Below are positions 8,446 to 35,930 of a stretch of 64,000 nt of DNA, one piece after another; within the stretch, counting starts at the first letter, position 1; each line of letters opens with the position of its first letter. The position numbers and the translations under genes are program-made. Source of the stretch: a virus; the IMG/VR virus record IMGVR_UViG_3300032323_002843, positions 23,909-87,908 of that record; one strand, written 5' to 3'. The notes under the pieces were generated by a model. That model was not told the DNA's origin and searched no databases. It saw only the letters and a list, made by a program, of their open reading frames with translations.

Positions 8446-8466
8446 TATTTTATTTTAATTATACCA

Positions 8467-8473
8467 ATAAATA
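8467..8473 (-). promoter_or_regulatory. Late promoter box, portal gene
   Basis: AATATTTATTGG, 21 nt before the portal ATG, in the gap after the terminase gene. Confidence 0.5.
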
Positions 8474-8477
8474 TTTA

Positions 8478-17996: not shown

Positions 17997-18244
17997 TATT
18001 TTTTAGACTTAAAACGTTTAACAATTTTAGCTAACATCTCATCTTCGTTCATTGAAGCCTTTGGTTTTGGCTTAACATCCGGATTTCCTAGTGGACGACG
18101 AGGCTTTGGTTTTTCACCTGGTTTACCTGGTGCTACTGCTGGGTCTGGAGATGTTGATGGTTTGCTAGGTGCTGTTGCAGGTCCTTCAGAAAGTACCTTT
18201 GCAATCACTTCACGAATTACTTCTTTTAATTTATTTTTGTTCAT
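17996..18244 (-). CDS. Short cargo-type protein, Pro-rich
   Basis: An 82-residue protein. The targeting helix MNKNKLKEVIREVIAKVLSE ends in L-S-E-G, an excellent gp21 site. Everything after it is a Pro/Lys/Ala-rich low-complexity stretch (PGKPGEKPKPRRPLGNPDVK) and a short basic end. After cleavage only a small basic Pro-rich peptide would remain, comparable in kind to the small internal peptides of T4 heads. Confidence 0.62.
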   Translation of the reverse strand: MNKNKLKEVIREVIAKVLSEGPATAPSKPSTSPDPAVAPGKPGEKPKPRRPLGNPDVKPKPKASMNEDEMLAKIVKRFKSKK

Positions 18245-20891
18245 TTTTTTCGTTTATATGTTTACGAAGTAGTTGTTTAAATTCTGTTATATGTGTGGGA
18301 TTAGCACCTAAATATTCATTTACAAGATAATTATGAACTTCTGCTAAACCACGTTGTTGTAATACGTTTAATAAATCTGATGGGGAATTTAATGATAATG
18401 CATTATTACCACTAGCGTTACCGGTTAATACGTAATTACTATTACCTGGTTGGACATTAATAGATGCTATAATTTGTTGGTTAGCCAATCTAATAATATA
18501 AATCTTACTACCACTAGGAAGAGACATAACTCTACCTACACGACCTGCTGTTCCTAATAAATTATTACGACGAGCTGCTCCTCTATCACCATTTGGATCA
18601 ACACGAGAGGCATTAGTAACATTTAATCTTCTCATAATTGCTCTTGGTAAGCGTAAGAATGCTACATCTAATCCAGTTTCATCCATTACTTCACGAACGT
18701 TAATATCACCTGCTGCTGCTGGAGCTGCTGCAGGACGAGGAGCATTTGGTTGACCTGCTGGTCTTCCTCTTCTACCAGTTGTAGGAGCAGCTGTAGCAGC
18801 AACTTGACCACCTAATAATTGTCTTGCTAATGCAGTTGGTACATTTGCTTTAACTAATTTACCAGATTGATCAGATATTTTAAAGCTTTCTCTTGGATTT
18901 GCTGTATTAATAAGTAAAGCTGTATCACCATTCATAGCTGGTTTTAATTGACTATCTGCTGTTACTGGTGGGTTATTAGCTATAAAAGCTTTTTTAGAAG
19001 TTGCCATCATTGAATAGCCTTGACTACTTAATAGTGTTTTTAAACCATTAGAATCAAATGCTTGGTTTGTATTTCTTAAATAATCAAAATACGATGCCCA
19101 TTGACTAGCATCTAAGTTATTACTAGTATCTCTACCTCTCCAATCACCTCCTCTTCCACCATAACCATAATCAACAAGTGTTCTTTGTTGACGAGGATCA
19201 ATTGTAGAAGGCATTAAAAAGAATTCTGATCTTGATGTTCCTCCATCTGAAGTTAATACTACTGCTGAGGTTTCCCCTATTTGTACTATTCTTTGATTAT
19301 AAGGAATAGCATTAACAACAGACGTTAGTGCTTCTTTATCTATAGTTACAGGAATATTTTCTTTTGTTTTAAATACATTTAATGCATTTTGTTGGAATGA
19401 TTCATTATCTTTAGAATCAACAAATACTTGTTGTACCTCTTCATTATCAAATGGAACCGATGTTATTTTACCATTTTTATCTATTTTATATGAAGAGAAT
19501 GAATTTGAGTCTAATATAATTTCTCCATCTTCTATTGGTTTAACTATTAGTGCAGAATTAGGATCATTTTTAGCATTATCTAATACTCTTGTAATTAAAT
19601 CTTTATCAATTACTTCGTCTTGAGATAATTTAAGTAAATTCTTTAACGGAATTTTGTCTAGTTCTGGAAAGTCTAGTAAATATTTTGATGTGCGCTTATT
19701 TAATTTAATATCAGGGAAGTCATCTTCTGCTTGATATAATCCTACTTTTATATCATCACCTAATTTTAGTTTTACAATAGTAGAACCATCTTTAGTAACA
19801 TATAGTCGTTCTGCTGATGGGACATCCCATTTATTAGATTTAACTAAGAATTTTTTAACTTCAAAAGGAATTATATCTGTAAGTAGATATTTTAGTTCAA
19901 TTTTGTCTCTCATATTTGCTATGATTGACTTAACATCTTGATTTGAAAATTTCTCTAAGTTTTTAACTAATATTAAACTACTTACAATACCAGCATTAGT
20001 AGCAATAAAATTAGCAATCTGAGGGTATTTGGGTAGATATTTTTCTACAAACTCATCATTTTCTATATCTTTAAATAAATCCCCTCTATCTTTTCTAACA
20101 ACTAAATATTGTTTTTTAGTTTCAAACGGAAATTTAGTCCACTCTCTAATAGTAACAGCTTCGCGTTTATATTGTTGGTTGACTTTCTCTTTTGTAGATA
20201 AAGGAATATATTTAAATATGTTTTGTAAACCTCTAACTGATGGGAAATTTTGTTCAATAAAACTCCATGGTTCCCATCTACTCCACTCTGTAGCTCTACC
20301 ACCAACATCGTTATTTGATCTGTCTGATGCTTTGTAAGTATTATCACTACCAACAACAACAACAAAGAAACTTTTACGATCACTATCAGGTAAATTTGTA
20401 TCTCTTACGAGATAAAATGTTGGATTTTTTCTATCAGAATCATAACGATAATTACCAAATGAGGTTTTAGTAATACACCAAGATTCTCCCCTACCAAAAT
20501 TTAAACAGTTTTCCTCTTTAGAACCATTATATATAATTAAACCATTTTCATTGTAAACAACGTCTGGTGTAATATCATATTCTTCTACAGGTTCTTCAAC
20601 ACCTTTAGCTGATGTAACTATTTTAATTAGTTGAGATAAAGGAACTATAACTTCATATTTACCACCAACTTGTTTTACTAAATCTGTTCCTCCTTTAGAA
20701 ATAATACCTGGTTTGATTTTGTCAAAACGATCAACATATGCTTTTAACTGGCTATCAGTAATGTTAATATTCAAATCATCAGCTTCTTGTTTATAGTGCT
20801 GGATGATTTGGTCTAATAATGCTTGTTTATATTCATTCAAAGGAAATGAACTATGAACTACATGTAATATAAATTTATCTATTGGTCTCAT
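18231..20891 (-). CDS. Giant multidomain virion-cluster protein with Trp-Cys motif
   Basis: An 886-residue protein, the largest of the cargo region. The N-terminal third has the block GRGESWCITKTSFGNYRYD followed by FYLVRDTNLPDSDRKSFFVV (about residues 128-180). This recalls a WC-T/A motif present in many uncharacterised phage proteins, in which the Cys could be catalytic. The middle is Lys/Asp-rich with beta-strand repeats. At about residue 705 lies an AT-hook-like linker (TGRRGRPAGQPNAPRPAAA), followed by a folded C-terminal domain. No standard targeting helix is visible. The function is unknown; a delivered effector or a structural protein both fit. Confidence 0.65.
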   Translation of the reverse strand: MRPIDKFILHVVHSSFPLNEYKQALLDQIIQHYKQEADDLNINITDSQLKAYVDRFDKIKPGIISKGGTDLVKQVGGKYEVIVPLSQLIKIVTSAKGVEEPVEEYDITPDVVYNENGLIIYNGSKEENCLNFGRGESWCITKTSFGNYRYDSDRKNPTFYLVRDTNLPDSDRKSFFVVVVGSDNTYKASDRSNNDVGGRATEWSRWEPWSFIEQNFPSVRGLQNIFKYIPLSTKEKVNQQYKREAVTIREWTKFPFETKKQYLVVRKDRGDLFKDIENDEFVEKYLPKYPQIANFIATNAGIVSSLILVKNLEKFSNQDVKSIIANMRDKIELKYLLTDIIPFEVKKFLVKSNKWDVPSAERLYVTKDGSTIVKLKLGDDIKVGLYQAEDDFPDIKLNKRTSKYLLDFPELDKIPLKNLLKLSQDEVIDKDLITRVLDNAKNDPNSALIVKPIEDGEIILDSNSFSSYKIDKNGKITSVPFDNEEVQQVFVDSKDNESFQQNALNVFKTKENIPVTIDKEALTSVVNAIPYNQRIVQIGETSAVVLTSDGGTSRSEFFLMPSTIDPRQQRTLVDYGYGGRGGDWRGRDTSNNLDASQWASYFDYLRNTNQAFDSNGLKTLLSSQGYSMMATSKKAFIANNPPVTADSQLKPAMNGDTALLINTANPRESFKISDQSGKLVKANVPTALARQLLGGQVAATAAPTTGRRGRPAGQPNAPRPAAAPAAAGDINVREVMDETGLDVAFLRLPRAIMRRLNVTNASRVDPNGDRGAARRNNLLGTAGRVGRVMSLPSGSKIYIIRLANQQIIASINVQPGNSNYVLTGNASGNNALSLNSPSDLLNVLQQRGLAEVHNYLVNEYLGANPTHITEFKQLLRKHINEKNEQK

Positions 20892-22752: not shown

Positions 22753-23033
22753 ATACTTCCTGTACGTTTATCTGTTAGGTATTTAATTTCGGTACGTAAT
22801 GCTGCCACTTCAGCTACTAATTCTAATATCTGTGCACGCATTTCATCTTTTTCTTTTGATGATTCAGCAAGTAATGCTTCTAATTTAGATATACGATCTT
22901 TGCAATCATGACGAATAAAATCTTCGTCACGTTCTTTGCGCATTGATTTTTTTTCATAGAATCGGAAAGCAGCGGCACTACCAAGAACGGTAATGGCTGT
23001 CATTAGAACTGTGTATATATTATCGGCATTCAT
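22749..23033 (-). CDS. Small membrane-anchored coiled-coil protein
   Basis: A 94-residue protein. A single membrane segment (residues 5-24, IYTVLMTAITVLGSAAAFRF) is followed by Lys/Arg residues and then a coiled coil (RISKLEALLAESSKEKDEMR and onward). It could be a spanin component or holin accessory. Overlaps the next gene by 4 nt; late box 22 nt upstream. Confidence 0.6.
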   Translation of the reverse strand: MNADNIYTVLMTAITVLGSAAAFRFYEKKSMRKERDEDFIRHDCKDRISKLEALLAESSKEKDEMRAQILELVAEVAALRTEIKYLTDKRTGSI

Positions 23034-23055
23034 TTGCTGTACAAGATGATTACCA

Positions 23056-23062
23056 ATAAATA
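23056..23062 (-). promoter_or_regulatory. Late promoter box
   Basis: TAATATTTATTGG, 22 nt before ATG 23033. It overlaps the stop codon of the zinc-finger gene upstream. Confidence 0.5.
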
Positions 23063-23644
23063 TTAAGAAGCAATAGTGTCCTTTAATTCTTGAATGTGAT
23101 CCTGTACCTCTTTGGTGAATTTCTCTTTATCAACACCTTTACCTTTCCATGTTTCTATATCACCCTGTTCAGTTACGAATTGATCATCAACTTCACTATT
23201 AAAGTCAATTAAAGCATCTTCAAGATCTTTAATATATTGCTTAACACCACCACCAATAAGGTTTTTAGCGTATTCTTCAAATCTGCCCTGGCGTTTTAAT
23301 TCAGTCTCATAAGCAATAACACAATCAAAACATTTACTATGGATGGGCCACATTTTTTTATTTAATGTGTTATTTTTCATTGCTTTACCACAACTAGGAC
23401 ATGCAATGGGTAAATTTATAACTTTTTTTAATTCATCAAAACGTGTTACTGTTTGTTTAATACCGTTTTTGATAGTCCATTTCTTACCATTCTCTTCCCA
23501 TACATCACCTTCATTATGTTCTATTTGTGCTTTAGTATAACCTACCTGAGTAACGGTTTTAGCAGTATAATCTTTTTGAATAATATTACGCATTCGCTGA
23601 ACATCACGTTCGCGAAATTCGCGTTTTAGCATATTGTCGCTCAT
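23063..23644 (-). CDS. Zinc-finger protein, conserved in marine T4-like phages
   Basis: A 193-residue protein. The N-terminal block LKREFRERDVQRMRNIIQKD and the beta segment EGDVWEENGKKWTIKNGIKQ precede a zinc site with CPSCGK (Cys82-Cys85) and HSKCFDCV (about residues 101-108). The rest is helical and acidic. I recognise the arrangement from proteins of marine T4-like phages annotated only as hypothetical. Role unknown; nucleic-acid binding is plausible. Its start is 1 nt from the stop of the HAD gene. Confidence 0.68.
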   Translation of the reverse strand: MSDNMLKREFRERDVQRMRNIIQKDYTAKTVTQVGYTKAQIEHNEGDVWEENGKKWTIKNGIKQTVTRFDELKKVINLPIACPSCGKAMKNNTLNKKMWPIHSKCFDCVIAYETELKRQGRFEEYAKNLIGGGVKQYIKDLEDALIDFNSEVDDQFVTEQGDIETWKGKGVDKEKFTKEVQDHIQELKDTIAS

Positions 23645-24111
23645 TATAAACCTAATTCTTTAAGTTGCTTAATTGTATTAGCTGCTGATGTGTGTAATAT
23701 TCCTATACCACCCTTATCATTCCATTCTTGGATAGTATTAGGTAAATCATCAATTAGAATTCTATTTTCACCTGAGAATAATTGCTTTTGTGCTCTCGGA
23801 TAGAAATAGGCGTTTTTATAGCTATTTTGTAGGTGCATTTTTAACCAAGCATCTTTACCAACACGAGATGTTTGGCTGCGAGATGGTGATGATAAAATAT
23901 ATGGTTTATACTTTTTAATATAACGCCATAATTCTTGTCCATCAGGCATCCAGGGCAAATTAGCCCAAAATGATGGACCTTCAGCATCTATAGGTTCCCA
24001 AAAAGCATTATCGCCTTTAGCAAATTGTTTTGTATGAACGCCTGTTGCGTCATAATAACCTTTTTCAAAATCGACAAGGACACCGTCCATGTCACAAAAA
24101 ATTTTATACAT
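23644..24111 (-). CDS. HAD-family 5'(3')-deoxyribonucleotidase-like phosphatase
   Basis: A 155-residue HAD hydrolase. Motif I FCDMDGVLVDF supplies nucleophile Asp7 and Asp9, motif II is ILSSPSRS, and motif IV ILIDDLPNTI supplies the paired Asp. The size, the WANLPWMPDGQELWRYI cap and the motif set fit phage and bacterial 5'(3')-deoxyribonucleotidases, which dephosphorylate dNMPs. The exact substrate is inferred. No targeting helix, so it acts in the cytoplasm of the infected cell. It sits between the nucleotidyltransferase-peptidase and the zinc-finger gene. Confidence 0.82.
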   Translation of the reverse strand: MYKIFCDMDGVLVDFEKGYYDATGVHTKQFAKGDNAFWEPIDAEGPSFWANLPWMPDGQELWRYIKKYKPYILSSPSRSQTSRVGKDAWLKMHLQNSYKNAYFYPRAQKQLFSGENRILIDDLPNTIQEWNDKGGIGILHTSAANTIKQLKELGL

Positions 24112-24113
24112 AA

Positions 24114-25379
24114 CTATTGATATATTTCTTCGTGTTGTTTACCAAAATCTCTTAATAATACTCCTGCTTTAGCGTTTGCTTCATTTTCAATGTCACTTCC
24201 GGTTTTACCACTTTCGTAGCTAATACGGCCATCTTCGTCTTGTTTACGGTGTACTAATTCATGTGCTAATGTTCTTAATATATCACCCATGTTTCTGTTT
24301 CCGCAATACACCCATATTTTATTGCTATTCGGATCAAAATATCCAAAACTCCTCATTTCCTTCGCTTTAGCAGTATCATATGATAGAGCTAAGTTACGGG
24401 GAGGATTTTGAATTTCCAAGTTTTTAATAGCATACTTTATAAATTCACCAATGGTTGCAGTTTCGCTTTCGTTTAACTTACCTTCCATTAATTTGGTTTG
24501 TTTAGGTTGACCTAAATTTAATGTTGCCATTAGTACTTTAGCTATTTTACCTGCTTTACGTAAAGTCTGGCCACCTTTAACTAAATGGTATTTGTCTTTA
24601 TCGTAATTTAATATTAATGGTATTTCGCCATCACTATTTTCTTCTTTATTTTCTAGTTTATCTAAAATATCCTTAGATAATACAATCATATTTCCAGCAA
24701 CAAAGGCATATAATACATCAGGAATAGGTACATTAAATTTATCTGCTGCTATTTCTATTTCGTGTCTTGCTTTATCAACGATAGCTTGATAAGCATCATC
24801 TACATTTTGATATTTTCTTTCTTCTAATGAAATTTCTTCACCTTTATCTTCTGCAGGTGGTAATTTTTTACCAATTGTATTTGCAAAATCAGTTAAATTA
24901 ATTCCATCAGGTATAAATTGAGCAATAGCATCTGCATTATTTGATTGAATAGCATTTCTTAATCCTGTAGCATTTACAGCATCAACAGTACCTGCATCAA
25001 ATACTTTTGCATTTGGATAATCCATACGTTTAAAACGGCTAGCATCATCTTTACCAAATGCAACTATAAAATTAGTATCAGGATTTTCTTTAACTAAATT
25101 ATAAGTTTCTCTAACAGGATTTTCTAAAGCAACTCTTATTTCAACATTGTTATCTAAAAGTGTTTTATATAATTCCCATACAGCAACACTTTCATCTGCA
25201 GTTACACCTTCACGAGTTTTAGGTGATACTAACACAACTACCTGATCAGCATTTTGTAATAGTTTTTTAACTACTTCAAAGTGACCCCTGTGTGGTGGTT
25301 TAAAAGCACCTGGGAAGACAGCTATTGTTTGCTTGTCTTGTTCAAGTAATGTGTTTGCTATGTATTGTCCTAAATTCAT
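24114..25379 (-). CDS. Cargo-type nucleotidyltransferase fused to a zinc metallopeptidase domain
   Basis: A 421-residue fusion. Residues 1-14 (MNLGQYIANTLLEQ) are a targeting helix with an L-L-E site. Residues 19-160 are a HIGH-type nucleotidyltransferase: FPGAFKPPHRGH (22-33), DADQVVVLVSP-like strand, and TGLRNAI for the second nucleotide-binding loop, as in NMN/pantetheine-phosphate adenylyltransferases. A linker follows. Residues 366-421 contain HELVH (373-377) with downstream IENEAN (398-403), a gluzincin-type zinc site. The combination of the two active sites is unusual; both look intact. The substrate is unknown. Confidence 0.78.
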   Translation of the reverse strand: MNLGQYIANTLLEQDKQTIAVFPGAFKPPHRGHFEVVKKLLQNADQVVVLVSPKTREGVTADESVAVWELYKTLLDNNVEIRVALENPVRETYNLVKENPDTNFIVAFGKDDASRFKRMDYPNAKVFDAGTVDAVNATGLRNAIQSNNADAIAQFIPDGINLTDFANTIGKKLPPAEDKGEEISLEERKYQNVDDAYQAIVDKARHEIEIAADKFNVPIPDVLYAFVAGNMIVLSKDILDKLENKEENSDGEIPLILNYDKDKYHLVKGGQTLRKAGKIAKVLMATLNLGQPKQTKLMEGKLNESETATIGEFIKYAIKNLEIQNPPRNLALSYDTAKAKEMRSFGYFDPNSNKIWVYCGNRNMGDILRTLAHELVHRKQDEDGRISYESGKTGSDIENEANAKAGVLLRDFGKQHEEIYQ

Positions 25380-26143
25380 TTTAAAAAGCTATTTACTTTA
25401 TTTTTAGCATCATCTGTAGATGAAAACTCTGGAGTAGATTGGATTAATTGCTGAATACTGCTATTTAGAGCTTCAATTTCAGCTTTCTTTTTAGCTAATT
25501 CATCTGGTGTGTATTCTTTACCACTACCTTTAACTGTTTTAAAGAATCTTTCTTTTGCAATAGCAGGATCATATTCTAATTTACCTTTAGGATCATTATT
25601 AATTAATACGAATTTATTACCAAACGCTTGTTCGTATGTACCAATATTACTATTTACACCAGCCCATGTTTTTAAAACAATAGATGGTGGTAATGAACGA
25701 CCTCCAGCTTTATCACGATCAGCATTACGTTGTAATGATGTGTAAGGTGAAACCCAAATCATGACCATCATTGTATCGTAGCCTAATTTTTCTAATTCGT
25801 CTTTTTTCTTTAATAAAGGTTTACTAGCAGCACCAGTACCATCAATAACAATGTTTTGTTTAGCAGCGGATAACTGTGCATATTTTTCTTTAGTAGCTTT
25901 TTGAGCTTGACCCATTAATTTGCCTGCTTGCGATAATTGATCCTGATCGAAATCTGCGACTTTTAAACCTAAACCTGCTGCTTTAAGTAATTCTTCATAG
26001 GTGTCATCGACATTAATTACAGTCAAATTTTTCGGTATTAATTGAGCAGAAGTGAATGTCTTACCAGATCCAGCAGGACCAGCCAGGAATATAGCTTTTG
26101 GTTTGGATTGTATTTCTTTTAATAAATCTAGTAACTTGATCAT
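25376..26143 (-). CDS. Cargo-type P-loop kinase, zeta-toxin-like
   Basis: A 255-residue protein read from ATG 26143 (MIKLLDLLKEIQSK), a canonical targeting helix with an L-K-E-I site; the longer frame start at 26182 lies inside a hairpin. Right behind the helix lies FLAGPAGSGKTF (Walker A, 22-29), then VINVDDTYEELL, a VIDGTG strand and a lid with RNADRDKAGGRSLPP. These are the motifs of zeta-toxin/AAA_33-type kinases. It is predicted to be carried in the capsid and injected. The target, whether a nucleotide sugar, RNA or small molecule, is unknown. It overlaps the next gene by 4 nt. Confidence 0.78.
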   Translation of the reverse strand: MIKLLDLLKEIQSKPKAIFLAGPAGSGKTFTSAQLIPKNLTVINVDDTYEELLKAAGLGLKVADFDQDQLSQAGKLMGQAQKATKEKYAQLSAAKQNIVIDGTGAASKPLLKKKDELEKLGYDTMMVMIWVSPYTSLQRNADRDKAGGRSLPPSIVLKTWAGVNSNIGTYEQAFGNKFVLINNDPKGKLEYDPAIAKERFFKTVKGSGKEYTPDELAKKKAEIEALNSSIQQLIQSTPEFSSTDDAKNKVNSFLK

Positions 26144-26151
26144 ATGTGAAT

Positions 26152-26158
26152 ATAAATA
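26152..26158 (-). promoter_or_regulatory. Late promoter box, proximal, kinase gene
   Basis: CTATTTATATTC, 8 nt before ATG 26143; touches the foot of the hairpin at 26158-26184. Confidence 0.48.
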
Positions 26159-26184
26159 GGTGACCTGGACGAGCCAAGCCACCT
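26158..26184 (-). terminator. Hairpin between two late boxes
   Basis: 11-bp stem (AGGTGACCTGG with CCAAGCCACCT, two G-U pairs) and a 5-nt loop, about 20 nt after the stop of the lipoprotein gene. No good T-run follows, so termination is likely partial. A late box lies immediately on each side. Confidence 0.5.
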
Positions 26185-26191
26185 ATAAATA
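26185..26191 (-). promoter_or_regulatory. Late promoter box, distal, kinase gene
   Basis: AAATATTTATAGG, 41 nt before ATG 26143 and upstream of the hairpin; second box for the same gene. Confidence 0.45.
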
Positions 26192-26205
26192 TTTGTAGTT
26201 TTTAA

Positions 26206-27408
26206 TTATTGTCCCTTAACTGGGAAACGTGTCCATCCATTTATCCATGTTGGTTTAGATATAGTTTCCATTTCAGCTTTAGTATAGCTTACTTCTTTGT
26301 TACCTTGTGATAATGCTTTTATTTTTATATCAGCAGCGGTAAACACTGTAGATGTAGATCTAAAGTTTAATAATGGGTCGAATGACTGTACTTCATTATT
26401 TTCAAACTTACTAATACCATCTTTATAAGCTTGTGCTGTTTCATTTGATTCAATACTAAATCCACCTTTTTGATATCCTAATATTTTAGAATTAGTCATT
26501 GTAAACTGTGTTGCACGTCTCCATCTTAAACCTAGATTGTGGTTTGCTAATGAAGCAGCATCAAATGGTCCAATCAGTACCATACTATTTAATTTAGGAT
26601 GTGTAAATGGTTGAGCGGTTGAGCCTGTACCATCATTATCACATTCTATACCATTTCCAGCATCACCATTATCTACAAATTGTGGATCACGTTTTGAGAT
26701 ACTGTTTGTTATAGTTCCAGTATAACCAAAATCAAAATCATAATCATCATCTGCAGTAGCAAAAGCATATAAATTTTTAGCATTTACAGTACCACCAAAA
26801 AATTCAAACGCATCATCGTTAGCATAAATAGTTTGAACATTCTCAATAATTGTTCCACTACCAACACCACCTAATGTTAATGCATTGATTTCGGAGTTTG
26901 GCATTGCTGCAATTCCAGCATATTCAATACGAATAAATTTTAAAACACCACTATTATCTAAATCATTAGTACCACCATAAGGACGACCAATACCACCTTC
27001 GATAGTTGGTTCTGATGATCTGTTGGTTTTAGCACGGCCTAAAATTACAATACCACCCCAATCGCCAGGAGACCTCTCGCCGACGTTTTTGCCTGAGGTG
27101 AATATAATTGGTTTTGTAGCTGTACCTTCAGCTATAATTTGAGCCCCTCTTTCAATACACAGGGCACCTTTTTCAGCAATATCACTTATAATAGTGGTAC
27201 CTGGTTGGATGATAAGTTTAGCACCATCAGTTATGTAAACATATCCTTTTAAAGTCCATGTTTTGTCTGATGTTAATGTAATTGTTGTGTTAATGTTACC
27301 GCTTAATGTTGTTGATGTAGGGACATTAATTGGTCCTTCACCTCCACCTAATTCTTTTTTGCAGGAAAATAGTCCAATGATAGCTAATAGTGTTAATAGC
27401 TTTTTCAT
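26206..27408 (-). CDS. Outer-membrane lipoprotein, beta-helix type, partner of TonB receptor
   Basis: A 400-residue lipoprotein. The signal peptide MKKLLTLLAIIGLFSCKKE carries a lipobox with Cys16 and the following Lys-Lys, typical of Bacteroidota. The mature part opens TLSGNINTTITLTSDKTWTL and repeats strand-turn units (WTLKGYVYITDGAKLIIQPG, GDWGGIVILGRAK, IENVQTIYANDDAFEFFGGT) suggesting a right-handed parallel beta-helix. It overlaps the receptor gene by 4 nt (ATGA), so the two are translated together. In bacteria such lipoproteins accompany TonB receptors as surface partners. Ligand unknown. Confidence 0.8.
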   Translation of the reverse strand: MKKLLTLLAIIGLFSCKKELGGGEGPINVPTSTTLSGNINTTITLTSDKTWTLKGYVYITDGAKLIIQPGTTIISDIAEKGALCIERGAQIIAEGTATKPIIFTSGKNVGERSPGDWGGIVILGRAKTNRSSEPTIEGGIGRPYGGTNDLDNSGVLKFIRIEYAGIAAMPNSEINALTLGGVGSGTIIENVQTIYANDDAFEFFGGTVNAKNLYAFATADDDYDFDFGYTGTITNSISKRDPQFVDNGDAGNGIECDNDGTGSTAQPFTHPKLNSMVLIGPFDAASLANHNLGLRWRRATQFTMTNSKILGYQKGGFSIESNETAQAYKDGISKFENNEVQSFDPLLNFRSTSTVFTAADIKIKALSQGNKEVSYTKAEMETISKPTWINGWTRFPVKGQ

Positions 27409-29648
27409 AAGTTTAAGTTTAATGTTAATGAAATTATTTGTTCGTTGTTTGTTTTAATTAAATCACCTTTTGTTTTTTGGTAATAAATGGATGGCTGCGC
27501 AAACACATCACTTATTGCCAGTTTAAGTTCACCTTTATTTATTTTATGTAAGTATACTACATCTAAAACGTTTCTAGAATTTTCAAATATATCAGCATAT
27601 CCTTGGAAACCAACTGCTGATATTCTATCTCCTACTCTATTATAAGTAATGTTTAATGTTTCTTTTTTCTTGTGTAAATTAATACCACCATTAATAACGT
27701 AATTAGATTGACCTTGCATTTGTCTATTTAATCCTTTTACATTTGAATTCATTAAGGATGTATTAGTATAAAAATCAAACCATCCATTTATTTTCTTACG
27801 AATTTCTATTTCAACACCATATAACACAGCAGATTCTGGGTTAGTGTAGGTTAGTAGTAAATTAGATGGTACTGATCCGTCTGCTACTATTTGTTCAATT
27901 GGTTTGATAAAATTTTTACCAAATAAACTTACAGATATATTTTCACCTGCTTTTGGATATAATTCCCATTTTAAATCTAAATTATATATGTCAGATTTTT
28001 CTAGATTAGGATTACCTAACAATTGTGCATTACGTACAAAATCATAATAAGCAAAATTAGCTACTTCTCTAAATTCAGGACGTGCTAATGTTTTACTTAA
28101 TGAAAATCTATACTTTGTTTTTTCTAAATTGTAAGAAAGATTTAATGATGGAAGTGGATCTAAATACTTTCTATTTACATTTACTCTAGTACCACTAAAG
28201 TCAGCTGTTTGTACATTAAATAAATTGTATTCTGTTCTTAATCCAGTATTTAATTTCCATTTACCAAAATCTTTATCATACATTACAAACCCATTAGCTA
28301 AATCAAAATCAGCTGTGTATCTATCTGTATTATTAGTAATTTCATTTAACATATCAACAGCATCGTATCTGAATATTCTTGCTTGAAAGTTTCTTAAGCG
28401 TTTAACGTATCCACTTCCAACTTTAATATCACCAAAATCTTTACTAATGCTTCCATTAAAACTATTTTCATCCATTACACTCCAAAAACGATATGTATCT
28501 CTCCAAGCAACAGCATAAGGTTCATTTATACCTAATGATTTAGTGATTGGATTAACTCTATAGTCAGGTTGATCACGTAACATTAAATTATGTCCTAAAT
28601 TAATATCCCATGTTTTAATTTTAGCATCAAACTGAGTGTTAATAGATGTTTTAATGATATTGTTTGAAGAATTACTTCTAACATTTTGTACATTATCAAA
28701 ATTATCACCATTACGAGTTAAATAAGATTCTTCAACTTGGTTATTAAATAATGTTTTTAAGCTATAACGATTAACTCCTAAATAAGTTATGTTTAATAAT
28801 CCATTTAATGATTTTACATTAGTAAATGATGTGTCCTTATATTTGTAAGCTAATTCAGTTGATGATTGATAATCTTGTCTATCAATATAGTTTAATGAAT
28901 ATGAATTACGAGCTACAGAACTAAATAATACGTTCCAATTATTTTTCTTAACACCAAATGATAAAGCACCATTAGCATTAGGAATAGATATAAATTCTTT
29001 AGCTAATGGAGATGAAATTAACTTAGTATATGCTCTTTTATCTCCGTTTCCACTAATACGAAATTTGTATGTAGAAGGAAAATTAGATGGAAAATCAACA
29101 CGTTTAACCAATTTAAAGTTTTGATTTGTAGATATTAATCCATATCCACTACCTAAACTTAAATTAAGAAATTTACTAGATACTTCTTTAGTTGATACTT
29201 GAATTAACCCACCAGCAAAATCACCTGGTAGATTAGCTGTAGATGATTTATTTACAACTATATTATCTATTAAACTAGAAGGTATAATGTCAAATGAAAA
29301 TGCTCTACGGTCAGGTTCAGTAGAAGGAAGCAATGTTTTGTTTAACATTGCTAAATTGTAGCGATCAGCTAACCCTCTAACTAATACAAATTTATCGTTT
29401 TGTACCGTGACACCACTTACACGCTTTAAAGCATCACTAGCAGTTCTATCAGGTGTTTTTTTAATAAAATCAATTGATACACCGTCAGATACAGCTAGAT
29501 TATTACGAACAATGTTTATAACAGCAGCTTCAGTGGATTTTTTGCCTGTAGAACGAATTGTTACTTCAGACATTGTTTTATTAAATAAAGTATCTTGGGT
29601 AAAACCAAAACCAGGACACAATAGTAATAGGACTAATATGTATTTCAT
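27405..29648 (-). CDS. TonB-dependent outer-membrane receptor
   Basis: A 747-residue receptor. Residues 1-18 (MKYILVLLLLCPGFGFTQ) are a signal peptide. The plug domain is clear: TPDRTASDALKRVSGVTVQN, FVLVRGLADRYNLAMLNKTL, LPSTEPDRRAFSFDIIPSSL, IDNIVVNKSSTANLPGDFAG, GLIQVSTKE (about residues 64-170). About 22 beta strands of a barrel follow and end with the outer-membrane signature IISLTLNLNL. It lacks the N-terminal carboxypeptidase-like domain common in Bacteroidota receptors. No frameshift or truncation is visible. Base composition matches the surrounding phage genes. Its substrate is unknown; the ligand may be a scarce nutrient. Confidence 0.9.
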   Translation of the reverse strand: MKYILVLLLLCPGFGFTQDTLFNKTMSEVTIRSTGKKSTEAAVINIVRNNLAVSDGVSIDFIKKTPDRTASDALKRVSGVTVQNDKFVLVRGLADRYNLAMLNKTLLPSTEPDRRAFSFDIIPSSLIDNIVVNKSSTANLPGDFAGGLIQVSTKEVSSKFLNLSLGSGYGLISTNQNFKLVKRVDFPSNFPSTYKFRISGNGDKRAYTKLISSPLAKEFISIPNANGALSFGVKKNNWNVLFSSVARNSYSLNYIDRQDYQSSTELAYKYKDTSFTNVKSLNGLLNITYLGVNRYSLKTLFNNQVEESYLTRNGDNFDNVQNVRSNSSNNIIKTSINTQFDAKIKTWDINLGHNLMLRDQPDYRVNPITKSLGINEPYAVAWRDTYRFWSVMDENSFNGSISKDFGDIKVGSGYVKRLRNFQARIFRYDAVDMLNEITNNTDRYTADFDLANGFVMYDKDFGKWKLNTGLRTEYNLFNVQTADFSGTRVNVNRKYLDPLPSLNLSYNLEKTKYRFSLSKTLARPEFREVANFAYYDFVRNAQLLGNPNLEKSDIYNLDLKWELYPKAGENISVSLFGKNFIKPIEQIVADGSVPSNLLLTYTNPESAVLYGVEIEIRKKINGWFDFYTNTSLMNSNVKGLNRQMQGQSNYVINGGINLHKKKETLNITYNRVGDRISAVGFQGYADIFENSRNVLDVVYLHKINKGELKLAISDVFAQPSIYYQKTKGDLIKTNNEQIISLTLNLNL

Positions 29649-29652
29649 TAAA

Positions 29653-29665
29653 TGAATTTAATTCA
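29653..29665. promoter_or_regulatory. Palindrome upstream of the TonB receptor gene
   Basis: TGAATTTAATTCA, a 13-bp near-perfect dyad 4 nt upstream of the receptor ATG at 29648. A position for an operator, but no repressor is known; AT-rich palindromes also arise by chance. Confidence 0.25.
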
Positions 29666-29675
29666 CTTATACGTA

Positions 29676-30461
29676 TTATTCTTTTATTTTAACACTTGTT
29701 GGTAATAATTCCGTCATAGGTTTAAAATCTGGGTTTTCTAGTTTATATATTTCGTATATATTTTTAAACATTTTAAAATTAGTTTCAATTTCATTTACGA
29801 ACTTTAATTCCCATCCTTTACCTTGTATCTTTCCGTTCTTTCCTTCACCACGAGTATTTGCTTTAACCCATAAGATACCTGTGTGAGTTACTTTCTCATC
29901 GTGTGTTTCATTCCATGCTTGAGCATAAGCAGCTAATTGTAAATCATAAGACGTATGTAAACTGTTCGATGTCTTAAGATCTAGTAACCATATGTTATCA
30001 AACATTCTAACAACTAAATCCGCTGTACCAGCATATTTGTGTTCGTCTGAGAATAAATGATATTCTGTTGCAATTAATTCTGGTTTATGTGTGTTCCAAA
30101 AATCAGCAAAACGTAAAATCATTTTCCAAACCTCAAGAGAGTACTTAGCACTCCCATCAGGATAAATCCAATTTATTTCTTCTCCATTTAAAAACGCATC
30201 TACAGCTGTGTGTACTTGAGTACCTTCACCTGCTGCTTTAGATGCAATAATATCACTATTATGTCCTACATCTTTCAACCAAGAATGGAAAAATTGATTT
30301 TTAGGGAAATAATTTAAAACAGATGTTACGGATGGATAATATTCACCATTACGTCTGTAGAATCTACTGTCTAAAACATTAACTTGTTTATCCCCTTCAG
30401 CGTATTCAACAATACGTTTGATTTTAGGATCTTTGATAATGTTTACATTTCTTTCGATCAT
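29676..30461 (-). CDS. PD-(D/E)XK exonuclease, Cas4/RecB-like
   Basis: A 261-residue nuclease of the RecB/Cas4 branch. Visible parts are PSVTSVLNYFPK near the start, GTQVHTAVDAF (the conserved His helix), EYHLFSDEHKYAGTADLVVR (with the active Asp), then the strand IWLLDLKTS (E/D-x-K type: DLKTS) and YDLQLAAYAQAW (QxxxY motif). Such nucleases process recombination or replication ends in T4-like phages. No four-Cys iron-sulfur cluster is visible. It overlaps the primase gene by 4 nt, consistent with a replication role. Confidence 0.82.
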   Translation of the reverse strand: MIERNVNIIKDPKIKRIVEYAEGDKQVNVLDSRFYRRNGEYYPSVTSVLNYFPKNQFFHSWLKDVGHNSDIIASKAAGEGTQVHTAVDAFLNGEEINWIYPDGSAKYSLEVWKMILRFADFWNTHKPELIATEYHLFSDEHKYAGTADLVVRMFDNIWLLDLKTSNSLHTSYDLQLAAYAQAWNETHDEKVTHTGILWVKANTRGEGKNGKIQGKGWELKFVNEIETNFKMFKNIYEIYKLENPDFKPMTELLPTSVKIKE

Positions 30462-31399
30462 ATTAATTGTAATTTTTTCTCAAGCAAACTCTGTAAATTC
30501 AGAGGTTTTGTTTGCTCAATTGTGTTAAGAAATTGTTCAAAACCAATTTCATTAGCGTCTTTACCTTCCATTTCTACTAAATACACTTCTTTACCATACG
30601 ACATTAACTGTTCAGCTTGTTTTAAAGCATCTTTTCTAGCATCAGCATCTAAAGCAATATAAATACGATTAACAGAAGATTCGACTAATTTTTTCATTAG
30701 TTTATCATGTAATACTTTACCAAACAAAGGTATAACATTACGTTTGATAGTAAGTGCATCAAATATACCTTCAACAAGTATAATTGGTGCATCCCAGTTT
30801 ATATATAACTCCCATCCAATAACGTCTTTAGCGGATGTAGGAGGATTTTTATATTTTCTTAATGATGGTTCTTTGTAATCACGAGCAATAAAATAATTTA
30901 GTTTACCTAAACTATCATAAGATGGAATAACAACACGGTATTCATATTTTCCTTCTTTACAAAAACCAATATTATATTTTATAACGTCGTTTTGTGTAAT
31001 ACCACGTTTTTTTAAAAATTTTAAAGCGTGTTTGGCTTCAATTTGAGCAATTTTATTTTCAACTTCGTCTGATAGTGAAATAAATTCTTTAGGTAATTCA
31101 AGAGCGCCTTGTGCAACGTGTTCTTCTTTTTTAGAAGGAACAATTAAAATATTTAATTCAGCTATTTTATTTTGTGGTGCTTTAATTTTCTTAAATAATG
31201 TAAGCAATGTTTTACCCTTAGCACCACATACCCAACAATGCCAGAAATTTTCACGTTTTGATGTTGTACGTAAACTAATTTCCATCTTATTTTTGTGATG
31301 AGTACAGAATGGACATTTAAAAGCATAATTGCCTTTACTAGTTGATTGTCCTTTACCTAGCACTGATTCGACTAGGAATAATAGAGCTGTATTATCCAT
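30458..31399 (-). CDS. 61: DNA primase, gp61-like
   Basis: A 313-residue DnaG-type primase that makes RNA primers for lagging-strand synthesis. The N-terminal zinc ribbon is CPFCTHH (Cys29, Cys32) and HCWVCG (Cys55, Cys58). The TOPRIM core follows with APIILVEGIFDALTI (acidic Glu) and RIYIALDADARKDA (DxD-like), and the KDANEIG motif. The length is close to T4 gp61 (about 340). Being separated from helicase genes, it suggests the rest of the replisome lies outside the window. Confidence 0.88.
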   Translation of the reverse strand: MDNTALLFLVESVLGKGQSTSKGNYAFKCPFCTHHKNKMEISLRTTSKRENFWHCWVCGAKGKTLLTLFKKIKAPQNKIAELNILIVPSKKEEHVAQGALELPKEFISLSDEVENKIAQIEAKHALKFLKKRGITQNDVIKYNIGFCKEGKYEYRVVIPSYDSLGKLNYFIARDYKEPSLRKYKNPPTSAKDVIGWELYINWDAPIILVEGIFDALTIKRNVIPLFGKVLHDKLMKKLVESSVNRIYIALDADARKDALKQAEQLMSYGKEVYLVEMEGKDANEIGFEQFLNTIEQTKPLNLQSLLEKKLQLI

Positions 31400-31426
31400 A
31401 ACCTGTAATATACGAAATAATTTTGC

Positions 31427-31858
31427 CTATAACAAGTCTTTGGTAAAAAATTTACCTAATATATTATCGTTATAGGATCTATGACTACCAATTAGAACTT
31501 CTTCTTTACACTGGTAGTGCATTTCGTAGTATGTTAGTTGTTTTTTAGTTGCGCACTGCTTATATATCCAACATTGGAAATTTTTTTCACCATGTTCTTT
31601 AATATCAGCGAGTAATTGCTTATTAGAACCCCAATATGTTTTCCAATCGCTTTCAACACGAATAATTTCGTGAGTTGGTTTGCGACCTGGTCCTGTTTGT
31701 TCTGCTAGTTGTTTTTTGGTAAGCTTATACTTTTTATTATTCCAAAACACTTTTTTACCAATATAAAACCTTCCAGTTTTAATATTAGTAATTTTATAAA
31801 CAAAACCATAATATTTTTCGGGATTTATTACATCCCAACTTTTCCATTTAGATGTCAT
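31427..31858 (-). CDS. GIY-YIG-like nuclease domain protein
   Basis: A 143-residue protein. YGFVYKITNIKTGRFYIGKK (residues 17-36) is a GIY-YIG-type start in which the first triplet reads GFVY and the second YIGKK. A basic stretch and SDWKTYWGSNKQLLADIKEH follow, then Glu in LTYYEMHYQ, a plausible metal-binding Glu. This is the layout of the short phage GIY-YIG proteins that sit beside replication genes; active or degenerate state is open. It overlaps the tail-protein gene by 11 nt. Confidence 0.62.
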   Translation of the reverse strand: MTSKWKSWDVINPEKYYGFVYKITNIKTGRFYIGKKVFWNNKKYKLTKKQLAEQTGPGRKPTHEIIRVESDWKTYWGSNKQLLADIKEHGEKNFQCWIYKQCATKKQLTYYEMHYQCKEEVLIGSHRSYNDNILGKFFTKDLL

Positions 31859-32207
31859 ATTTTACAACAAATGTCATGTCCGTATCAGGGGATACCATAA
31901 TTGGTTTACCAAACTTAGCCACAGCTAATAGATTATCATTATCATCGTATAATCCGATTTGAGTAGCATATGTGTAGAAATCTGAGCCTGTAGCAAAATC
32001 TCTTACAGTACTATCGATTGATCCTGTTAAAGTATAACCGCCATTTCCATTAGATACTATATATTGGCTGCCTGATATACGCAGTGTTGAATTATAAGAT
32101 AAATTATAATCACTGTCTTTTACTAAACAACGCACCTCATTTTCATAAACGGTATGTTCGTTTTTGAATGATACTGTAAAAGAACCTGTATGTACTACTG
32201 CTGGCAT
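31848..32207 (-). CDS. Tail/fibre module protein
   Basis: A 119-residue beta-rich protein, MPAVVHTGSFTVSFKNEHTV at the start. The last 40 residues (TQIGLYDDNDNLLAVAKFGK) are paralogous to the C-terminus of the 337-residue tail protein at 35934-36947 (AVGMYNDNNELLAIAKLSQP). Such modules occur in tail or neck proteins of marine T4-like phages. A late box 4 nt before the ATG marks it as late. Confidence 0.66.
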   Translation of the reverse strand: MPAVVHTGSFTVSFKNEHTVYENEVRCLVKDSDYNLSYNSTLRISGSQYIVSNGNGGYTLTGSIDSTVRDFATGSDFYTYATQIGLYDDNDNLLAVAKFGKPIMVSPDTDMTFVVKYDI

Positions 32208-32827
32208 GGATATAAATATTTATCTAGATTATCTTTCCAAAGAAATTTAGTTACATGTTCATTGTAGTTAGGTTGGTAAAAATATGGACTATCTTTAGGA
32301 GTTAAAATAACATGATTATTGGATTCCATAGCTAAAAAAAGATCTGTAAATTCCCCTTTTTCTAAAGCCATAGTAGATATGTCCGCTAGTGTTTGAGCAG
32401 ACTCAGCATTTGGAACAATGATAACCCCTGGTGCTAATACGTTATATGCTCTATAGTAAAAATCATCATATTCTTCTAATCGAATAGGAGCTTTCATTCC
32501 TCCGCATTCATATGTACTACCAGACCATATTATAGCCAATATATTGTCAGGAATATAGAATTCTTCAGGAGGATTAACAAATACGGCTGAATCATCTTCC
32601 ATATAAATAAAAGGGAATATGTTTATCTTTATTGATTCCTTCATTAGGTTAATAAAATCAATGCTCATTCCGTTTTGTCTAGGATGAGTTTTTGTATTAT
32701 AAGGGACTCTATTATATTTTAATCCTAATTCTTTACATTGGTTTTCAATAAATTCTTTTTCTCTAGTATAAAATTCATTATTAGGATAATAACCATGAAT
32801 ATCTTTAAATTTTATTATTGTAGACAT
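32195..32827 (-). CDS. Glycosyltransferase-like protein (EDD motif)
   Basis: A 210-residue protein, the third and last gene of the glycosyltransferase operon. It begins IIKFKDIHGYYPNNEFYTRE, and FPFIYMEDDSAVFVNPP (EDD at 77-79) is a DxD-type metal/nucleotide-sugar site behind a hydrophobic strand. A GST..-type segment and APGVIIVPNAESAQTLAD follow. The family cannot be named with certainty. It overlaps the next gene by 13 nt and the previous by 13 nt, so the three are co-translated. Confidence 0.62.
   Translation of the reverse strand: MSTIIKFKDIHGYYPNNEFYTREKEFIENQCKELGLKYNRVPYNTKTHPRQNGMSIDFINLMKESIKINIFPFIYMEDDSAVFVNPPEEFYIPDNILAIIWSGSTYECGGMKAPIRLEEYDDFYYRAYNVLAPGVIIVPNAESAQTLADISTMALEKGEFTDLFLAMESNNHVILTPKDSPYFYQPNYNEHVTKFLWKDNLDKYLYPCQQ
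32212..32218 (-). promoter_or_regulatory. Late promoter box, 4 nt before ATG
   Basis: AAATATTTATATCC then ATG of the tail-module gene; identical 13-nt context to the box at 3114. Confidence 0.5.
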
Positions 32828-34556: not shown

Positions 34557-35930
34557 TTACGGACACAGTGTTGTAGCAACAATGAATCCACCATTATCTA
34601 CTTGGTAGCTGTTTGCACCAGTTCCTTGAGAGTACCATTGGTTACCTCCTATTATAGGAGTCACTCCACACTCACCATTTACATATAATCTTGTAGGAGT
34701 TAAAGCATTGTCAGTATCAAATAATGTTAAACTTCCTAAATGAGCACATGCAGTGGCATTAGAAGGGTATAAATATATTTGTTGACAAGCAGCTGTTGTG
34801 GTAGTTGTTGTTGTACTAGTAGTAGTTGTTGTAGTAGTAGTTGTTGTTGTAGTCGTAGTTGGTGGTGGTGTTGTAGTTGTTGTTGTTGTACTAGTTGTTG
34901 TTGTTGTTGTAGGTGGTGGTGTTGTAGTTGTTGTTGTTGTACTAGTTGTTGTTGTTGTAGTCGTAGAAGGTGCAGTTGTAGTAGTAGTTGTCGTACTAGT
35001 TGTTGGTGTTAATGTTGTTGTGGTTGTTGTTGTAGAAGTTGTTGTAGGGGCTGTTACAATAGCAGTAACTTTAGCCTTATTACTTCTTAAAGTAATAGGA
35101 CAAGAACTAGCAACTTCAGCACTTATAGTATAGTAAATAGTATAAGTACCAACCATAGTAGTAGTTAACAAAACAGTACCGTTACTTCCTGTTGACCAAT
35201 AAGCTAAATCAGAAGCACTACCTGATAGTAATATTGAACCTGTATTTAAGGTTCCACTTCTTCCATCATCATTAAGCGATGCTGAAATTGTTTTTGGAGA
35301 GTCTGTAGTTAAAAAACTTCCACTATCATTTTTAGCTAGTGGAGGTAGAGGAAACATTAATTGATAATCTTGATTAGTTATAATAGCTAATCCTTGAGCA
35401 TAAAATATATTCCCAACATGAGTTTTACTTCCAGAGTAATCAAATAAATTTCCATAAGCATCATCTGTAATATTATATGCTGATGATGATAATTGAAAAT
35501 TGCCAGGAAGTACTTTATTACCAAAAACGCTTTGATTAATTGCTATTACACGAATCCCGTCCATTGCTCCTGTAGGGAAATTAACAATTAAATTATCGTT
35601 ATCATTGTAAATAAAATAAGAAGAAGTAGGACGTTGTTGAGAAGCAGACTGATAATTGTTTAGGGTAAACATTAACGAGCTTGTGTTTAACGAAGCTGTA
35701 TATGTTTGATAAAACATTTGGTTAACTTGAGCGTAAACTAAACGCTCATATTCACCTTCAGTAACAGGATCATTATCGGCAGAAAAAGCTCCTGTAACGT
35801 TTGTGCCTTTATAAATAGTTAAATAGCCAGATGAAGTAGGGTATGGACAATAAGGTAAAGTCCATTGTTTATTAGCTTGGTTTGCTACAACTGTAACGTC
35901 TGATCTGCTTAACTGTTTGAATGAAGACAT
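34557..35930 (-). CDS. Tail fibre-like protein with poly-Thr stalk
   Basis: A 457-residue protein in three parts. Residues 1-285 are a beta-rich domain with blocks related to the neighbouring 337-residue tail protein (LPGNFQLSSSAYNITDD, and YQLMFPLPPLA). Residues about 290-383 are almost purely Thr with Ser and PPP spacers, a mucin-like stalk. The last 73 residues form a Cys-containing domain (ACQQIYLYPSNATACAHLGS; GECGVTPIIGGNQWYSQGTG), plausibly the host-contacting tip. The adjacent glycosyltransferases invite the idea of O-glycosylation. Confidence 0.75.
   Translation of the reverse strand: MSSFKQLSRSDVTVVANQANKQWTLPYCPYPTSSGYLTIYKGTNVTGAFSADNDPVTEGEYERLVYAQVNQMFYQTYTASLNTSSLMFTLNNYQSASQQRPTSSYFIYNDNDNLIVNFPTGAMDGIRVIAINQSVFGNKVLPGNFQLSSSAYNITDDAYGNLFDYSGSKTHVGNIFYAQGLAIITNQDYQLMFPLPPLAKNDSGSFLTTDSPKTISASLNDDGRSGTLNTGSILLSGSASDLAYWSTGSNGTVLLTTTMVGTYTIYYTISAEVASSCPITLRSNKAKVTAIVTAPTTTSTTTTTTTLTPTTSTTTTTTTAPSTTTTTTTSTTTTTTTPPPTTTTTTSTTTTTTTPPPTTTTTTTTTTTTTTSTTTTTTTAACQQIYLYPSNATACAHLGSLTLFDTDNALTPTRLYVNGECGVTPIIGGNQWYSQGTGANSYQVDNGGFIVATTLCP
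34793..35050. repeat. Low-complexity Thr-codon repeat
   Basis: About 258 bp of ACA/ACT-type trinucleotides on the coding strand, including a near-perfect duplicated block with CCA-CCA-CCT spacers. Such tracts change length by slippage and so could vary the fibre stalk. They also produce long spurious ORFs on the plus strand. Confidence 0.85.

Follow-up and report, generated by a model that had tools for sequence, protein, structure and literature searches.

The closest described counterparts of the gene pair considered here belong to bacterial responses to phosphate (Pi) depletion. In Flavobacterium johnsoniae, the TonB-dependent transporter Fjoh_0545 (pf07715, pf13715, pf14905) and the lipoprotein FII (Fjoh_0546; IPR011050) are encoded in the phoBR operon, with fold changes upon Pi depletion of 8.0 and 9.9, respectively, in a Table 1 column that we take as log2 (PMC8115612; this and all other literature statements refer to the portions of each source that were available). 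The lipoproteins FI, FII and FIII share 31–36% identity with a Caulobacter low-Pi lipoprotein (PMC8115612), and ElpS (cc0170) is described as a surface lipoprotein that is induced by Pi starvation and encoded beside the TonB-dependent receptor (TBDR) gene cc0171 (PMC2996285). Here we describe a comparable arrangement in a virus: a 64,000-nucleotide stretch of DNA, termed the window (positions 23909–87908 of the 87,908-base IMG/VR virus record IMGVR_UViG_3300032323_002843), in which a TBDR gene is joined to a gene for a lipoprotein (LP). We consider it probable that the two genes form a module, carried by phages, for acquiring phosphorus at the outer membrane of hosts that are likely to be Bacteroidota, and they appear to represent the phage branch of a TBDR–lipoprotein pair that is often kept beside phosphorus genes in bacteria. 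This reading rests on bacterial neighbours of the pst, PiT, porin O/P, PhoBR-like, phosphodiesterase and phosphonate types, on upstream repeats and on an allele exchange in a bacterial genus.

Both genes lie on the minus strand. The TBDR (27405–29648; 747 residues), assigned from its open reading frame and Pfam matches, contains a Plug domain (PF07715, residues 57–146, at 29211–29480; 32.5 bits, cut-off 23.9) and a beta-barrel stretch matching OMP_b-brl_3 (PF14905, residues 402–737, at 27438–28445; 88.8 bits, cut-off 27), and scores 160.8 bits against TIGR01782, which is under the cut-off of 310. The LP (26206–27408; 400 residues), assigned from its open reading frame and a structural model, is of FII/ElpS type by context, and its signal peptide ends at Cys16 (27361–27408), a lipobox cysteine that is invariant across 33 aligned sequences; the signal peptides of both proteins and the lipobox were read by eye. 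A first-pass annotation of this DNA had described a complete TBDR and a beta-helix lipoprotein overlapping by 4 nt, which the Pfam Plug and barrel matches, the LP model and the stop/start overlap at 27405–27408 bear out. The Pfam scan likewise agrees with its observation that a carboxypeptidase-like (CarboxypepD_reg-like) domain is absent from the N-terminus of the window TBDR. The same annotation listed a terminal beta-strand signature; outer-membrane barrels usually end in an aromatic residue, and this claim does not hold for a C-terminus that reads ...LTLNLNL and lacks that final aromatic residue. An LSEVxVxS-like segment conserved in the set labelled A1 is a candidate TonB box. Among phages the TBDRs occur in forms of ~825 and ~750 residues, the window holding the short form, and the CarboxypepD_reg-like domain is present in a long-form phage relative (L025) as well as in loci L162 and L161.

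With respect to the described systems, our comparisons draw on the order of the genes, their domain content, the fold and the surrounding genes. As in Fjoh_0545/0546, the receptor and lipoprotein genes adjoin, and the bacterial loci examined here also have phoBR and porin neighbours; the phage relative L025 carries the full pf07715, pf13715 and pf14905 set of Fjoh_0545, and the LP model has the pectin-lyase-like fold of FII. Unlike the chromosomal pair, the window TBDR has lost pf13715, although this domain is not required of the pair type. The lipoprotein and TBDR genes adjoin in cc0171/ElpS as well (PMC2996285), and ElpS is likewise a surface lipoprotein of Pi starvation; in contrast to the window, however, that pair lies beside a type II secretion system, and the link from the LP to ElpS rests on the published 31–36% identity of FI, FII and FIII with the Caulobacter lipoprotein.

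The first-pass annotation had proposed looking for the closest bacterial operon, and the neighbourhoods that were found often contain phosphorus genes. A single genome contig scan with two peptide patterns, in which 5 of 41 matches were confirmed, yielded Aquirufa antheringensis (order Cytophagales; 69%) and a Cytophagaceae metagenome-assembled genome (MAG; 71%). At the A. antheringensis locus L162, at L269 and at a MAG locus of the same genus (L163, identical to L275), the TBDR–LP pair is followed by genes for a phosphodiesterase-like protein and PiT. Close to the L162 pair, a phosphonate HD oxygenase exceeds its cut-off (TIGR03276), an alkaline phosphatase match falls short of its own, and an FAD oxidoreductase match is also present. 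More broadly, an LP homologue was detected at E ≤ 1e-20 in 334 of 390 Cytophagales genomes. Forty regions were taken from the higher-scoring of these matches, not at random; the TBDR directly precedes the LP in 39, and pstS-like and porin O/P genes (16 porin genes) lie at most five genes away in the same 12, with pst permease genes also present in 7 of those 12. PstS, PstC and PstA of one region (L202) score above NCBIfam cut-offs. A second order holds closer LPs (50–61%) in 29 of 396 genomes. Among 22 further regions (21 from this second order, plus L279 from the same class), the TBDR precedes the LP in every case. A DUF47-type protein (TIGR00153), which we take to be PhoU-like, and a sensor kinase are each present in 14 of these regions, PiT in 13 and a PhoB-like regulator in 10. 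LPs at E ≤ 1e-95 were few (3 of 222 sampled genomes of the family and 3 of 395 of the class), so near bacterial relatives appear to be rare in the sampled genomes. As a separate observation, the next gene on the opposite strand encodes a MoxR-like ATPase, named by eye, in 15 of the 40 Cytophagales loci (L201–L240).

A natural replacement within the genus of A. antheringensis ties the phage form of the pair more directly to phosphorus. An LP at E ≤ 1e-60 was detected in 31 of 38 genomes of this genus, and it is of phage type (73%) in 3 and more distant (44–50% where listed) in 28. At L272, L274 and L276 the native TBDR (932–947 residues) and LP (588–589 residues), together with a gene of 183–189 codons, are bounded by a gene for a protein of 112–117 residues and by the phosphodiesterase–PiT genes, and at L162 (7647–11397) and L269 (9817–13564) the phage-type pair occupies the exact chromosomal site of this native pair. 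In the third phage-type genome (L163, 3–2244) the downstream flank alone is visible on a 4.2-kb contig. At three other native loci, L270, L271 and L273, DUF5690 and HD genes are nearby and the phosphodiesterase–PiT genes do not adjoin the pair. Because the phage-type pair can substitute for the native one within a phosphorus island, the two very probably do the same job.

The quick trees placed the Aquirufa phage-type pair among the phages, but phage monophyly withstood an approximately unbiased (AU) test made on the quick tree (p 0.786), to which a better tree could be found. A careful tree built from 36 rows groups the Aquirufa copies with five phages at 100/100, inside the phages; phage-only monophyly appears in 0 of 200 bootstrap trees, and the AU p value is 0.067. 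Transfer from phage to host is thereby favoured, not shown. With slightly less than even conviction, we suggest that phages act as a long-term reservoir: the pair would have been taken from Bacteroidota and spread as a Pho-box-controlled cassette among diverse large phages, and Aquirufa would later have reacquired it from a phage, in place of the pair that its phosphorus island had contained.

PhoP/PhoB boxes are TTAACA repeats with an 11-bp period, and repeats of this spacing are strongly over-represented before the phage TBDR genes. Within 58 non-redundant upstream regions (of 70 usable loci, window included), TAAYA pairs at a distance of 11 were counted 29 times, as compared with 0.57 in 200 shuffles (maximum 4), and pairs at a distance of 22 eight times (0.57 in shuffles). 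The strict TAAYA-N6-TAAYA pair occurs in 25 of the 58 (shuffle mean 0.7), 68–96 nt 5′ of the start codon, versus 9 of 1336 other phage genes. The same pattern marks the bacterial loci. For Cytophagales (39 regions plus L162, 300 bp each), the strict pair precedes 22 of 40 TBDR, 15 of 16 porin O/P and 5 of 12 pstS genes and only 3 of 303 other neighbours, while in the second bacterial set it precedes 19 of 22 TBDR genes and 14 of 194 others. A matrix built from 120 bacterial repeat units only, with 1327 other phage upstream regions as controls, places 45 of the 58 phage TBDR upstream regions beyond the 95th control percentile, 28 of them also beyond the 99th (AUC 0.94). We describe the 11-bp repeats as predicted Pho-box-like elements. 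Taken together with the neighbourhoods and the allele exchange, they lend good support to the auxiliary nutrient uptake, with phosphate named first, that the first-pass annotation had put forward.

Several observations weigh against this reading. No pst or porin O/P gene lies within five genes of the pair in 28 of the 40 Cytophagales regions, and the example matches to PhoB-, PhoR- and DUF47-like proteins score below NCBIfam cut-offs. The strict pair is missing from 33 of the 58 phage upstream regions, and 13 of the 58 fall below the 95th percentile by matrix; the window itself has no TAAYA-N6-TAAYA pair (0 matches in 64 kb, 4.9 expected by chance) and, with its near group (L001, L002, L004, L073), is among the lowest matrix scores. 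The strict pattern is absent, too, upstream of the pair in huge phage LR745206, before the phosphodiesterase, PhoA and DUF5690–HD genes of L162, and before the TBDR at 2 of 6 native Aquirufa loci, and predicted Pho boxes in phage genomes have been judged unreliable (PMC10976474). In Caulobacter, cc0171 is constitutive, and deletion of elpS left phosphatase activity unchanged (PMC2996285). Finally, Flavobacterium phage immuto, the nearest named phage of the window by portal (59.0%) and terminase (53.2%), is not among the five phage-collection records that match the TBDR.

The pair is widespread among viral contigs. Searches with the TBDR and the LP found 115 and 124 stretches, respectively; the best 80 of each were kept, so that the counts that follow are lower bounds, and together with the window and LR745206 they form 88 groups of non-identical sequence. 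Both genes are visible in 74 of the other 86 groups, and the exact 4-nt overlap is found in 72 of these 74. One of the two others (L036) has a 2-nt gap instead, and the other is represented by L149, whose TBDR is read in two pieces and so lacks the overlap that is intact in L003, another member of its group. The L149 copy (7850–10001 of a 182.8-kb record; longest frame 580 residues) may be frameshifted. Flanking genes vary among phages, with an exonuclease or primase neighbour at 13 loci, some of them from one contig. Thirteen other records with a portal homologue show portal identities to the window from 83% down to 37% and LP identities of 75–85%, a steadiness of the LP that points to strong constraint or to lateral transfer among phages, or to the two combined. 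Four of the five phage-collection matches are unannotated faecal contigs labelled 'Bacteriophage sp.'. PHROG named 2 of 10 examples, and Pfam 0 of 4, of the common phage neighbours of the pair. Two unnamed, secreted-looking protein families are encoded close to the pair, one in 13 phage groups and the other in 23; examples of these (L150 1226–2059, L011 13477–14199) have no Pfam match.

Since the pair has chromosomal relatives, host contamination or a chimeric assembly might be invoked to explain its presence, as the first-pass annotation had cautioned. We give this a vanishingly small probability. The different contig L002 aligns in one piece with window positions 22781–32220 (86.5% over 9492 columns), unbroken across both edges of the module, and for this reason a chimeric assembly at the window pair is very unlikely. 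L003, L004 and L075 are collinear with the window from ~26.1–26.2 kb to 31.8–32.2 kb, and L149 over the same span but in two pieces. TBDR, exonuclease and primase identities to the window are 95%, 90% and 88% for L002 and 79%, 80% and 88% for L003, a similar divergence that is expected of a pair long resident in the group of the window. Moreover, the clade of the pair is dominated by phages. Of 26 records picked by length (window and LR745206 included), 16 have a terminase match, 14 a tail sheath match (12 above cut-off), 21 either of these, and none a ribosomal S7 match; in 14 cellular control genomes the corresponding numbers for terminase family, sheath and S7 are 11, 3 and 13. The absence of S7 and the sheath matches carry more weight here because the terminase family matches most cellular controls too. 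A host-type gene pair linked to phosphorus lies inside a phage genome, and in that sense it is a candidate auxiliary gene set.

In terms of structure, the LP model (pLDDT 84.4) is a right-handed beta-helix, which agrees with the published pectin-lyase-like description of FII. It aligns with 5w6p_A over 281 positions (VIA-align Z 23.2, rmsd 3.5). The best Foldseek E value is 4.7e-3, with tailspike and epimerase matches at the level of fold only, and a profile search for a solved relative by sequence found none (best E 0.83). The TBDR model (pLDDT 63.6) has ~22 long strands that form a barrel of moderate confidence, the plug (<50) being not modelled, and matches FecA (1po3) at E 4.3e-16. The XusA–XusB (PDB 9gbc) and BtuB–BtuG (8blw) complexes likewise join a TBDR to a surface lipoprotein; they are siderophore and B12 transporters, unlike what we propose for the window, and the likeness by fold covers the TBDR barrels. 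The TBDR genes of megaphages Mar_Mega_1 and LR745206 have been published as SusC, with a proposed role in carbohydrate uptake (PMC9723777). Such a role would suit the TBDR fold, and the LP beta-helix is common to polysaccharide lyases and epimerases (Z 20–23). We regard it as highly improbable for the window pair, as the LP has no match to any Pfam or PHROG family at E ≤ 0.1, SusD-type families included, and as the bacterial phosphorus neighbourhoods and the Pho-box-like repeats stand against it. The LR745206 pair itself resembles that of the window in combining a phage TBDR with a lipoprotein, but it branches off at a distance and has its genes in the opposite order (LP, then TBDR; 35% and 26% identity). 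Given the neighbourhoods found here, phosphorus rather than the published SusC role is suggested for its TBDR.

Sequence conservation bears on what the pair does in the infected cell. TBDRs are common phage receptors, and the Protein Data Bank (PDB) holds T5 pb5 bound to FhuA; a full-length, phage-encoded TBDR could thus swamp or replace the host receptor and exclude superinfecting phages, or act as a decoy, as the first-pass annotation had considered. In pelagiphage Skadi-1, which resembles the window by annotation in having a TBDR in a phage genome, the gene lies between those for tail tube and major capsid and was interpreted as a clue to the receptor used in adsorption (PMC10504331). In the 64 phages compared, the window among them, however, conservation is 0.89 in the plug and 0.87 in the extracellular-side segments, as compared with 0.74 in the periplasmic turns and 0.76 in the rest of the barrel, the extracellular side having been assigned from loop lengths. 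Escape should diversify plug and extracellular side, whereas their conservation suits a conserved ligand and not a decoy. Receptor replacement also leaves unexplained an LP partner that is linked to phosphorus genes and held by a fixed 4-nt overlap in 72 of 74 groups, as well as the Pho-box-like repeats and the allele exchange in the phosphorus island, and we consider it improbable.

Both genes are under purifying selection: over eight gene pairs each, dN/dS is 0.087–0.175 for the TBDR (two saturated) and 0.044–0.175 for the LP (one saturated). This is significant for a variant in which the LP is the active part, raising extracellular phosphatase activity in the manner of ElpS, and the receptor is an accessory or sensor. 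Overexpression of elpS raised phosphatase activity in the supernatant, although ElpS itself was without activity (PMC2996285). The variant would still be phosphorus acquisition, though by a different mechanism, and we hold it to be unlikely, albeit less so than the other alternatives. Against it, purifying selection maintains the TBDR and its ligand side is conserved, and no phosphatase was recognized beside the phage pair among the scanned neighbours, most of which are unnamed.

Building from these results, import by the pair may be pictured as follows. The LP would sit on the surface of the infected cell and capture or help release a phosphorus compound, for which phosphate, an organophosphate or another compound of this kind are candidates. 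The TBDR would import it with energy from the host TonB–ExbBD, and the imported phosphate would supply phage DNA synthesis. In phages with the repeats, host PhoB would switch the pair on in starved cells. In the window lineage, the pair lies behind the genes for a primase (phrog_47, 30458–31399) and an exonuclease (phrog_298, 29676–30461, common to the phage group of the window), both on the minus strand, with which it is presumably co-transcribed, so that its expression would follow phage replication instead. In the window, 27 nt separate the exonuclease stop from the TBDR start.

These neighbours are not the head/cargo operon in which the first-pass annotation had placed the pair. Downstream are a zeta-toxin/kinase-like protein and a cytidylyltransferase (Pfam/PHROG), and the portal and terminase genes are at 6.6–10.1 kb, away from the pair; portal, terminase and baseplate wedge matches of the window are T4-like. 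Directly 3′ of the LP gene, a consensus scan found a terminator-like hairpin of 13 pairs (26156–26186, minus strand), in a scan that yielded 7 hairpins in 12 kb as compared with 4.7 in shuffles. The element TACGTATAAGTG (29664–29675, minus strand), between the exonuclease stop and the TBDR start, also precedes the TBDR of L004, L073 and L075 and, with one change, that of L002. We assign it no role because, despite this conservation before the TBDR in the group of the window, it is not enriched at up to two mismatches (7 versus 8.1). A candidate phage promoter for the window pair, TATAAATA, is mildly more frequent in the window than chance predicts (27 versus 19.1, with 2 of 100 shuffles reaching 27), and was rejected since 23 of these sites lie on the plus strand, opposite to the genes. 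A sigma-70 scan gave 60 matches versus 68.7 in shuffles, no excess over chance. Elsewhere in the window we noted a cytidylyltransferase-like N-terminus fused to a weakly metallopeptidase-like C-terminus (24114–25379), a 457-residue protein with a long Thr/Pro-rich low-complexity linker and no PHROG match (34557–35930), an 886-residue protein without PHROG or Pfam match (18231–20891), and a 433-residue protein matching pyridine-nucleotide oxidoreductases near the portal and terminase genes (12816–14117).

Parts of this picture are already known. Cyanophage PstS is a phage phosphate gene under host PhoBR control (PMC10976474), and phage TBDR genes have been reported (PMC9723777, PMC10504331). 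These two are the reports of phage TBDRs that we found in the open-licence literature, neither tied to phosphate in its available text, and none was met in the available text of PMC10013915, PMC7288430, PMC12013270 or PMC11337851. The claim of the first-pass annotation that no well-described case exists is consequently outdated in part, as phage TBDRs are on record and LR745206 has one with a lipoprotein. An outer-membrane TBDR–LP pair linked to phosphorus, its spread in phages, its Pho-box-like control and its chromosomal exchange were not met in our open-licence literature searches. The pair resembles cyanophage PstS as a probable phage-carried gene set for phosphorus acquisition, with predicted Pho-type control in the phages that have the repeats, but PstS is a binding protein of the periplasm, whereas the pair belongs to the outer membrane and depends on TonB. 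In the cited literature, phosphate genes of phages are those of cyanophages and act inside the outer membrane.

The proposed role amounts to a testable prediction for the at least 115 to 124 contig stretches that carry relatives, and it suggests another reading of a megaphage gene published as SusC. The allele exchange in Aquirufa offers a natural experiment to ask if genes of phages can serve the nutrient uptake of a host, and the phages with and without the repeats would allow two regulatory designs to be compared, namely control by host PhoB and coupling to phage replication genes. If our interpretation is true, many phages of the Bacteroidota type would carry a TonB-dependent phosphorus module, and phage control over nutrient uptake would reach a further large bacterial group and the outer membrane itself.

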